Shown here: in pieces, positions 11,452 through 55,391 of the stretch
Position numbering within the stretch: position 1 is the stretch's first letter
Layout of the letters: every line of letters starts with the position of its first letter
Assembly (NCBI GenBank): GCA_016861105.1
Contig: BOKS01000005.1
Coordinates: forward strand, 62,001-126,000
Source: Betaproteobacteria bacterium
Lineage (GTDB): Bacteria > Pseudomonadota > Gammaproteobacteria > Burkholderiales > Casimicrobiaceae
DNA length: 64,000 nucleotides
Reading direction: 5' to 3'
Position numbers and translations under genes: made by a program
Notes under the pieces: model-generated
The model's database searches: none
What the model saw: only the letters and a program-made list of their open reading frames with translations
What the model was told of the DNA's origin: nothing

Positions 11452-13149
11452 CTAGATGCGCGGGAGCGTGACGCCCTGCTGCCCCTGGTACTTGCCGCCG
11501 CGGTCCTTGTACGACGTCTCGCAGACCTCGTCGGACTCGAAGAAGATCACCTGCGCGACGCCCTCGTTCGCGTAGATCTTCGCCGGCAGCGGCGTCGTGT
11601 TGCTGAACTCGAGCGTGACGTGGCCTTCCCACTCCGGCTCGAGGGGCGTTACGTTCACGATGATGCCGCAGTTGCTCACGAACACGCCGGACTCCAGCGC
11701 AAAGTTGCCCGCTTCGGGGACGGTGAGGCAATAGACGTCGTGATCGCCCGCGAGCTCCCGCACGGCGACCACCTTGTGGTTCCGCGCCCGGCTGCCCTGG
11801 CCGCGAAACCGCTCGATCACCTCGGGGAACCGTCGGAAGACCGAGCGATCGCAGTCCAGCTCGCGTGCCGCACCGCGGATCGAACCGGTCCTGTTCAGCG
11901 CCGACAGGATCTCGCGCTCGCCGATGTCCGCGCGCAACCGGACGTGACGCGCAACGTCGGCCTGACGCAACCGCCGCGTTCCATCGTCTCGCGACCATGC
12001 CGCCGCAATTGCCTGGCCGTGCCGGACCCGCTCGGCAGGATCGGCGAACCTGCGCAAGGTGGCCTGCCTATGCCGGGCACGCGTTTCGTCGGTGGGGTGC
12101 CGGCGTTCGTCCAGCACGCGTGCCCGAACGGCCGCATACGCCGGATCCGACCAGAACGCGGCCGCCCGCTTGGCCTGCAGCTCCGAGTAGCGCGCCACCC
12201 ACTCCGGATCGCACGACCGGCGCTCCAGGGCCGCGCGAATGGCGGCGGAATGCCCGTCGGCATCGAAGTCTGCCCCATAGCTTTCCGCGTTGTGCAGCCG
12301 GATGTGCTCGGCCGCCACCATGCGAACGAGATTCGTAGGGCGGTTGTTCCGGCGATCGAAATCGACATGGTGCCGGTGCGTCCCGGGCGCGTCGGGATAG
12401 ATGCCGCCGCGAAGGTTCCACTCGTCTGCAAGCCGATGCGTCGGTTCCAGATGCCCCGTGATGGGCTGGTAGACCATCTCGTAGCCGCGGAACAGGTCGC
12501 GGTACAAAGGCATCAGCGAAACGCCGGGCCGCAGGGCCGCTGCCGCCGCCATCCGGCCGTCACGCAGCATGAACTCGTGATCCGGCGTTGCGTGGATGAG
12601 ATCGCCGCTGTCGAGCGCCACTTCCACCAGTGCATCGCGCCCGACGTAGCGGGGAGCATCGAGCAGCGCCACGACGACGCGACCGTTCGGGCCGATGGCG
12701 TAACCCCAGAACAGTTCGCCATCCTGCGCGCGCCGCGCCATGTCTTCGAGCGATGCGCTGGTCCCGTCCACCAGCGCAACGCGCGTGTCGCCGCGAAAGC
12801 AGCGCGCATACGTGCTCTTGCCGAGGCACACGACGAGCACGTTCCGCGGGATCCGGAAGTACTCCACCGTGCGTGCCAGCGCGAAGGAGTTCGGCGGGAT
12901 GATGCACACCTCGCCGCGGAAATCGACGAACGACCCGGCGTCGAAGCGCTTCGGGTCGACGATCGTCGAGTTGATGTTGGTGAAGATCTTGAATTCGTCG
13001 CTGCAGCGGATGTCGTAGCCGTAGCTCGACGTGCCGTACGAGACGATGCGCCGTCCGTCGACCTCGCGCACCTGCCCCGGCTCGTAGGGCTCGATCATGC
13101 GCTGCTCGGAGGCCATGCGGCGGATCCAGCGGTCGGACTTGACGGTCAT
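11452..13149 (-). CDS. dcd: dCTP deaminase interrupted by an in-frame intein
   Basis: A 565-codon gene. Residues 1-116 and 494-565 together make a complete 188-residue dCTP deaminase, the usual length for the family. The flanks join as [21 protein letters not shown], and the [11 protein letters not shown] segment with the catalytic Glu is intact. The enzyme deaminates dCTP to dUTP (with ammonia release), which Dut at 54.9 kb can convert to dUMP for thymidylate synthesis. The start is the ATG at 13149, giving the family N-terminus [13 protein letters not shown]; an open frame upstream to 13317 has no support. The insertion (residues 117-493) must splice out to give active enzyme, because it splits the conserved active-site segment. 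Confidence 0.92.
11671..12801 (-). other. Intein with HNH homing endonuclease inside Dcd
   Basis: 377 residues (117-493 of the precursor). Block A starts with the nucleophile in [13 protein letters not shown]. Block B has the TPDH motif ([16 protein letters not shown]). An HNH endonuclease core follows ([20 protein letters not shown], about residues 256-275). Next come basic helical segments and a helix-turn-helix-like segment ([20 protein letters not shown]). Blocks F and G are [15 protein letters not shown] and GVFVSN, ending in Asn493, with Cys494 as the +1 extein residue. The penultimate residue is Ser instead of the usual His. The endonuclease would make the element mobile into intein-free dcd alleles. 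Confidence 0.9.
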
Positions 13150-13372: not shown

Positions 13373-14461
13373 TCAGGTGTTCTGGATCACGATCGACGGG
13401 AACTTCGCGCTGAAGTCCTCGGCCTTCTGCGCGACGGCGACCGCGGTGCGGCGGGCGATCGCGCGGTAGATCTGCGCCACCTTGCCGTCCGGGTCGGCGA
13501 CGACCGTCGGACGGCCGGTGTCGGCCTGCTCGCGGATGCGGATGTCGAGCGGCAGGCTCCCGAGGAACGGCACGTTGTAGTCCGCGCACATCTTCTCGGC
13601 GCCGCCGCTGCCGAAGATCGGCTCGGCGTGCCCGCAGTTGCTGCACACGTGGATGCTCATGTTCTCGACGATGCCCACGATCGGCACGCCCACCTTCTCG
13701 AACATCTTGAGGCCCTTGCGGGCGTCGATCAGCGCGATGTCCTGCGGCGTGGTGACGATCAGCGCGCCGGTCACCGGCACCTTCTGCGACAGCGTGAGCT
13801 GGATGTCGCCGGTGCCCGGGGGCATGTCGACGACCAGGTAGTCGAGGTCGCGCCAGCGCGTGTCCTTGAGCAGCTGCTCGAGCGCCTGCGTCACCATCGG
13901 CCCGCGCCACACCATCGGCGTGTCGATGTCGATCAGGAACCCGATCGACATGGCCTGCAGCCCGTAGGCCTCCATCGGCTCGATCGTCTTGCCGTCGGTG
14001 GACTCGGGGCGGCCGGAGATGCCGAGCATCGTCGGCTGCGACGGGCCGTAGATGTCGGCGTCGAGCACGCCGACGGCCGCGCCCTCGGCGGCGAGCGCGA
14101 GCGCGAGGTTGACGGCGGTGGTCGACTTGCCGACCCCGCCCTTGCCGCTCGCCACCGCGATGATGTTCTTGACGCCCGGCACGAGCTTCACGCCGCGCTG
14201 CACGGCGTGCGCGGTGATGCGGTGCGTGACGTTCACGGTGACGCGGCCCACGCCGGGGAGCGTCGCCAGCGCCTCGCTCGCCAGCCGCCGCAGCTCAGCG
14301 TACTGGCTCTTCGCCGGGTAGCCGAGGACGACGTCCACGGTGACGTTCCCCGCGTCGACCGCCACCTTCTTCACGGCCTTGGACGCGACCAGGTCGCGGC
14401 CGGTGTTGGGGTCGACGACGGCGGCAAGCCGCGCCTGGACGTCGGCTTCGGTGAGCGCCAT
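13373..14461 (-). CDS. apbC: Iron-sulfur carrier Mrp/ApbC P-loop ATPase
   Basis: A 362-residue Mrp/NBP35-type ATPase. The N-terminal 90 residues form a MIP18/DUF59 domain. The P-loop is the deviant Walker [18 protein letters not shown]. The C-terminal C-x2-C pair in [13 protein letters not shown] binds the transferred Fe-S cluster as a dimer. It acts as a cytoplasmic scaffold/carrier for cluster delivery to apoproteins. It is divergent from metG, a conserved arrangement in betaproteobacteria. Confidence 0.93.
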
Positions 14462-54935: not shown

Positions 54936-55391
54936 ATGACCAGCCCGATCATCGACGTCCGCATCCTCGACGAACGGATGCGCCACCAGCTTCCCGCCTA
55001 CGCCACCCCCGGCGCGGCGGGGCTCGACCTGCGCGCCTGCATCGACGCGCCGCTCACGATCGCCCCGGGGGACACGCACCTCGTCCCGACGGGCATCGCG
55101 ATCCACATCGGCGATCCCGGCTACGCGGCCGTGATCCTGCCCCGCTCGGGGCTCGGCCACCGGCACGGCATCGTGCTCGGCAATCTCGTCGGGCTGATCG
55201 ACTCCGACTACCAGGGCCCGCTGATGGTGAGTTGCTGGAACCGCGGCCACGAGCCGTTCGCGCTGCAGCCGCTGGACCGCCTGGCGCAGCTCGTGGTGCT
55301 GCCAGTCGTACAGGCGGACTTCCGCGTCGTCGAGTCGTTCGAAGCGAGTGCGCGCGCGGAGGGGGGGTTCGGGAGTACGGGGCGCGCGTAG
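54936..55391 (+). CDS. dut: dUTP diphosphatase
   Basis: A 151-residue trimeric dUTPase. Motifs in order: [39 protein letters not shown] and the flexible C-terminal [12 protein letters not shown] that closes the active site. It hydrolyses dUTP to dUMP, keeping uracil out of DNA and supplying thymidylate synthesis together with Dcd. ATG 54936 gives the family N-terminus. The frame is open upstream to 54705, joining a DUF4258-like segment. Confidence 0.95.

Follow-up and report, generated by a model that had tools for sequence, protein, structure and literature searches.

The dcd gene on the chromosome of this Burkholderiales-type bacterium is interrupted by a real class 1 intein. We hold it as close to certain that an HNH homing endonuclease is embedded in this intein and that the position it occupies in dCTP deaminase (Dcd), site b (STYAR^CG), has been colonised by a whole intein family. 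It is a genuine member of a known allele family, and the added interest lies in the breadth of this family and in a second insertion site nearby.

The interrupted dcd gene

The window, i.e., the whole stretch of 64,000 nucleotides analysed here, contains on its minus strand a frame (11452-13149) of 565 open codons plus stop that codes for the interrupted Dcd. Two stretches of it, residues 1-117 and 493-564, are homologous to Dcd and align collinearly with the B. thailandensis enzyme (4DHK, E 4.3e-102), and the dCTP deaminase model TIGR02274 also matches in two stretches around the insert (145.2 bits, cut-off 92.8). These matches define an N-extein of residues 1-116 (12802-13149, minus strand), ending in LGKSTYAR, and a C-extein of residues 494-565 followed by the stop (11452-11670, minus strand), which when joined give a complete Dcd of 188 residues. 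Between them lies, in frame, an insert of 377 residues from Cys117 to Asn493 (11671-12801, minus strand), starting with CFRGDTRV and ending with GVFVSN, directly before Cys494. It is recognised as an intein by comparison with its family, by Pfam Intein_splicing (41.5 bits, cut-off 35.8) and by the NCBIfam models of intein ends (N-terminal 31.6 vs 24.5, C-terminal 22.1 vs 15.6). The first-pass annotation, made from the letters alone, had given the coordinates, the insert length, the residue numbers and the 188-residue product exactly, as judged by the frame, the profiles and the 4DHK alignment. Its placing of the insert in the active-site segment of Dcd also fits, with the junction directly after the Arg of GKSTYAR. 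This Arg presumably corresponds to R115 of E. coli Dcd, and it is by that enzyme that we take GKSTYAR-CG to be the active-site segment. Among the empty Dcd genes of the window's family, the junction runs uninterrupted as GKSTYARCG in all 50 that were fetched, and independent assemblies carry a homologous insert, so that chance is not an explanation for it.

A family of inteins at one codon junction

Six aligned inteins served as query in a scan of species-representative genomes, which yielded 215 pattern matches and 161 relatives; the best 80 relatives were retained. All of these best 80 of 161 lie in Dcd at the site-b junction, 78 of them with both extein halves and two cut by contig ends. 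Altogether 83 inteins were extracted, including those of the window, of G243 (L053), of the cyanophage CL131 and of the viral contigs L179 and L180. Every one of them has Cys1, a terminal Asn, a +1 Cys and no stop, with the conservation of Cys1 partly enforced by one of the two scan patterns, which favours CF[RT]G[DN]T members. By their record titles the carriers fall into eight named phyla, Pseudomonadota (41), Chloroflexota (18), Cyanobacteriota (7), Deinococcota (3), Planctomycetota (3) and, with a single intein each, Acidobacteriota, Methylomirabilota and Elusimicrobiota; eight of the 83 have no phylum label (the window, L053, CL131, L179, L180, L078, L108 and L120). Cultured carriers include Thiofilum flexile DSM 14609, Macromonas bipunctata DSM 12705 and Ectothiorhodospira mobilis DSM 4180 and DSM 237. 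As to length, 71 inteins have at least 340 residues and 12 are shorter (166-326). Such full, shortened and mini forms, together with empty relatives, make the homing cycle traceable at one site. The viral loci deserve a mention of their own. A 270-kb viral contig has a Dcd with a 166-residue mini-intein at site b, devoid of endonuclease (L179:5001-5498), and a second viral contig has a CL131-like Dcd intein with HNH (L180:5001-6026), upstream of which a ThyX-like gene seems, by eye, to be interrupted by an intein-like insert.

Closer to the window, 60 of the 64 genomes of its family have a Dcd match. Six of these 60 carry the site-b intein (G000, which is the window's genome, its congener G055, and G043, G056, G057 and G027), two carry a different intein at another position, site a (G045 and G058), 50 are empty, and in the remaining two (G026 and G048) the Dcd runs into the contig edge before the junction. 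The Dcd intein is interrupted by contig ends in G027 (C295/C334) and G058 (C2/C109), possibly a result of strain variants with and without intein. Across the wider order, a strong match to the window intein was found in only three of 399 sampled genomes, namely G000 itself, G414 (59%) and G243 (mini form), and four more had weak matches. The earlier remark that chromosomal inteins are rare in betaproteobacteria is thus supported, for this intein, within the order.

Anatomy and class

Six segments can be delimited on the minus strand of the window intein. Block A (12763-12801) holds the first nucleophile, Cys117, a Cys in all 83 extracted inteins, and block B (12559-12600) holds T188-P-D-H191, with the T and the H equally universal (83/83). 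The HNH endonuclease core (12289-12384) contains H260, H261, N268 and H282, kept in 71 of the 71 inteins of at least 340 residues. A helix-turn-helix-like segment (11806-11919) is marked by predicted helices and by TGSIRGAAR, invariant in the six aligned inteins; it is probably the DNA-binding part of the endonuclease. Block F (11695-11742) has Cys474, also found in 83/83, and block G (ESGVFVSN) with the +1 Cys494 (11668-11694), delimited by sequence and family comparison, has Ser in the penultimate position. Blocks A, B, F and G and the HNH core had been called readable at the outset, a statement confirmed by the presence of the family-invariant residues. Pfam HNH_3 alone gives 17.2 bits on this intein, under its cut-off of 24.8, though the H-N-H core itself is there in the four residues named.

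The assignment to class 1 follows from the Cys117 nucleophile, the TxxH of block B, the terminal Asn493 and the +1 Cys494. The penultimate His, a usual but non-defining feature of the class, is replaced by Ser492. This Ser-Asn ending is common in the family, where the penultimate residue is His in 30 of the 83 inteins, Ser in 26, Lys in 10, Arg in 10, Gly in three, and Leu, Ala, Gln and Asn in one each, a variability that makes this position useful for comparative work on splicing chemistry. Penultimate Gly, Lys or Ser is also on record for class 1 mycobacteriophage inteins, in the extracts of PMC5050341 available to us. Class 3 was considered and rejected, as Cys117 is present and the W-C-T positions hold F193, C474 and V491. 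It may be added that the block F Cys is invariant (83/83) although Cys1 is also present.

An AlphaFold2 model of the precursor (mean pLDDT 82.5, pTM 0.54) was built from 60 aligned precursors, the window plus 59 of 61 chosen loci (L099 and L122 were left out). Foldseek matched this predicted structure to Dcd structures (4DHK) and, separately, to the intein folds of NpuDnaE (4KL5, E 4.8e-6), Mtu RecA and Ssp DnaB. The predicted order of domains is the N-part of the splicing domain, the HNH core, a helical linker, the helix-turn-helix-like segment and the C-part of the splicing domain.

Mobility and descent

The cycle that we propose would start with a 565-residue precursor that is inactive or poorly active. 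Cys117 would attack the carbonyl of Arg116, the N-extein would move to Cys494, and cyclisation of Asn493 would release the 188-residue Dcd. As for cleavage and homing, which we infer, the intein would cut intein-free dcd at the site-b junction and would be copied in by recombination.

Intein and extein histories are partly decoupled. The intein nearest to that of the window in our set is 69% identical, while their exteins are 91% identical. The 71 full-length inteins form 2485 pairs, across which the correlation between extein and intein identity is 0.46, a flat relation to which near-saturation of intein identity may add. Inteins are closer than exteins in all 119 Cyanobacteriota-Chloroflexota pairs (means 61.0 vs 48.3%) and in all 238 Cyanobacteriota-Pseudomonadota pairs (means 60.7 vs 50.5%); for Chloroflexota-Pseudomonadota pairs the inteins are closer in 19 of 578 and the exteins in 559. 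Within Pseudomonadota, mean identities are 83.7% for exteins and 63.3% for inteins. A tree of 67 inteins (the near-copies L076, L113, L119 and L131 were dropped) needs 11 phylum changes on its 63 labelled rows, and a tree built from the exteins of these rows needs seven, six being the least possible. Three Chloroflexota inteins group with nine Pseudomonadota ones in the intein tree (SH-aLRT 99), and clustering by phylum is nevertheless far above shuffles. The seven changes of the exteins, this clustering and the 559 pairs with closer exteins all count against transfer as a straightforward account. Because of these changes and cross-phylum groupings, we consider that the inteins have crossed phyla at times, yet still cluster by phylum.

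The endonuclease appears to be maintained. Among 22 close pairs of relatives (the window's own copy is in none of them) the dN/dS of the HNH region was 0.00-0.21 in the 14 pairs with finite values, and eight were saturated. The helix-turn-helix segment also gave low values, except for one pair (0.83 at dS 0.02), and the linker reached 0.50. The low HNH values and the complete conservation of the HNH residues in full-length members therefore put the endonuclease under selection in the family. Composition was also looked at as a sign of foreign origin and discarded. GC3 is 81.7 in the intein and 96.3 in the extein of the window dcd, but inteins of the 83 loci average 11 points below their own exteins, and the window does not stand out in its residual (+0.9, sd 7.5, rank 44 of 83).

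How recently the window copy moved is a different matter. In the intein tree it falls among others from its genus (SH-aLRT 89), a position as compatible with repeated gain as with long residence and losses, and with 69% as best identity its last transfer may be old. For the host side we used the upstream neighbour of dcd (13373-14461, minus strand, 362 aa), presumably of the mrp/apbC family, as marker. Its tree covers 37 of the 61 loci (G056, G057, G045 and L135 are not among them); the four site-b carriers present need four changes, and the window's genome pairs with the empty G061 (SH-aLRT 98). On the tree of Dcd exteins, which has 57 rows and is weakly resolved, these two do not pair, and site-b occupancy including L135 requires five changes. 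The first-pass annotation had proposed that the element is or recently was mobile. For the family this is supported by patchy presence, intein-extein decoupling and a conserved, constrained HNH region; a recent move of the window copy is not supported in the same way.

The alternative to be taken most seriously is a window intein that can splice and no longer moves, its endonuclease dead and the insert kept by vertical descent with slow loss. The distance to the nearest intein would suit it, as would the 12 of 83 relatives below 340 residues, most of them through loss of parts of the endonuclease region, and the shortened intein of G056 (same genus; L127 is the same contig), which has Pro in place of H282. 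All HNH and helix-turn-helix residues invariant in the family are, however, intact in the window copy, the four HNH residues are present in every one of the 71 full-length members, and the window's sister on the neighbour-gene tree is empty. We consider loss of mobility a possible but rather unlikely reading, and the window intein is probably active.

Splicing and dUTP supply

The break lies in the GKSTYAR-CG segment, and splicing should therefore be needed for Dcd activity. For the window copy splicing, like homing, is inferred, and it is the CL131 homologue alone for which splicing has been reported in print. The genome of the window (4.49 Mb, 28 contigs, 85% complete) has one Dcd match. Of five hits to the deaminase family PF00383, three were examined; NCBIfam assigns them to TadA or RibD (one only weakly TadA-like), and no dCMP deaminase is among these three. 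The initial claim that dUTP supply depends on splicing is plausible. There is also a known route to dUTP through ribonucleotide reductase, and Dcd is probably a main source of dUTP but not provably the sole one. Two side observations belong here. A weak DCD-fold match elsewhere in the window (55050-55298, plus strand, 30.5 bits) is probably a dUTPase. The same genome has a second intein, at about 283572-284387 of contig C1 (L005, L231, L273), by eye in a ribonucleotide reductase; it is LAGLIDADG-like and its apparent last residue is Gln, not Asn (...GLVTGQ^CGEQPL).

It could be asked whether the intein is retained as a conditional switch on Dcd, hence on the supply of dUTP and dTTP. Its location in the active-site segment, by which the precursor should be inactive, and the free variation of the penultimate residue in the family would suit a regulatory role, and an extract of PMC5050341 has this residue influencing splicing in a phage intein. 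On the other side, the intein is absent from 50 of the family's 60 Dcd genes and a trigger is seen nowhere in our data, and we regard regulation as improbable. An assembly chimera or a pseudogene can be dismissed for the window, since in spite of the contig breaks inside the inteins of its relatives G027 and G058 the frame is open, the boundaries are correct and independent genomes, cultured strains among them, have homologous inserts at the same codon. The insert is best explained, then, as the homing intein described above.

A second insertion site five codons upstream

The other intein of the family, in G045 and G058 (in the latter split over two contigs), is unrelated to that of site b and lies five codons upstream of it, at LGK^STYAR, ending in HVHN before Ser. 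Its endonuclease is by eye of the LAGLIDADG type, and among curated models the intein is matched best by PRK07773, a DnaB model (219.1 bits). A search for site-a Dcd in the 399 genomes of the order gave one more case, G223, with an intein of 279 residues; 398 genomes of the phylum yielded nothing better than a weak match (48 bits). Other matches of the site-a search that were opened were, by eye, DnaB (L220) and ribonucleotide reductase (L231). A viral scan with one site-a intein sequence matched five stretches, none of them confirmed, and one for the double-intein junction matched nothing.

The only case of double occupancy that we have seen is L135, a contig of 3930 bases from a metagenome-assembled proteobacterium, apparently congeneric with the window, that has both inteins in one dcd. 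Its frame of 870 residues consists of an N-extein of 111, a site-a intein of 411, STYAR, a site-b intein of 271 and a C-extein of 72. The site-b intein is short, yet it keeps the HNH and helix-turn-helix residues. Leaving STYAR aside, the exteins share 182 of 183 residues with the empty Dcd of G050, from the window's genus, and at the DNA level 304 of 333 bases agree in the N-extein, 206 of 219 in the C-extein and 700 of 954 upstream, where a small antitoxin-like and a PIN-domain-like gene (names by eye) lie in the part aligned with the G050 locus (L026). L135 might be an assembly chimera of a-only and b-only alleles. Against it, the join would need an overlap of 15 bases, which is shorter than usual assembly words, and the upstream side is co-linear with G050; the 331 bases downstream align poorly (157/331).

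We lean towards the view that two intein targets lie in the active-site loop of Dcd, one for an HNH lineage at site b and one for an unrelated DnaB-like LAGLIDADG lineage at site a, five codons apart, and that each insertion should destroy the DNA target of the other, yet both can co-occur. If the double insertion of L135 is true, splicing twice would yield a mature Dcd that retains STYAR as an internal extein of five residues. Neighbouring inteins with working endonucleases have been argued to be a partial dead end for homing (an excerpt of PMC10643990), and spacings of 48 and 85 residues between inteins are mentioned in an excerpt of PMC8966425. Among the matches listed in a literature search for tandem, adjacent or closely spaced inteins, a spacing as close as five residues was not found. 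A natural test of mutual hindrance of homing would be offered by site a and by L135 with its two inteins, whose spacing is much smaller than 48 and 85 residues.

Comparison with known systems

The site-b insertion is already known from the Dcd of the cyanophage vB_AphaS-CL131, which answers the question left by the first-pass annotation of whether the site was catalogued. According to the available extracts of PMC6293099, ORF069 of this phage encodes a Dcd that contains an HNH intein, and the product purified from E. coli had about the size of the spliced Dcd. The junctions in the phage gene, GKSTYAR^CFTGDT and GVFVKN^CGIIANLTP, are the same as in the window, i.e., both inteins are inserted between the Arg and the Cys of STYAR-CG. 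They also share the host protein, the exact junction (STYAR^C...N^CG), the order of blocks, the HNH, the TGSIRGAAR segment and a penultimate residue other than His (Lys in CL131, Ser in the window). Unlike that of the window, the CL131 intein is in a phage gene and has 352 rather than 377 residues; identity is 32.6% by tblastn and 34-37% over the intein.

Two bacterial Dcds (Proteobacteria and Chloroflexi) with inserts are credited in the same extracts to MacGregor et al. (2013), with the wording "intron-containing"; as cited there, the insert is in dCTP deaminase, as in the window. The best curated intein match of the window intein is RtcB_rel_intein2 (NCBIfam NF052663, 142.7 bits, residues 116-504), which like the HNH inteins of phage proteins belongs to host proteins other than Dcd. 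Of the 80 viral loci, six were profiled; their hosts include NrdD, RtcB and a T4-like portal protein, with inteins 28-42% identical to that of the window. The LAGLIDADG inteins of DnaB (PRK07773) are related to the window intein, with its HNH core, only through the intein splicing fold, and it is the second Dcd intein, at site a, that they resemble. In the literature consulted, seen in extracts, the Dcd inteins previously described come from one phage and, by citation, two bacteria. The scale and the context found here go beyond those descriptions, with the best 80 of 161 loci all at one codon junction of one enzyme.
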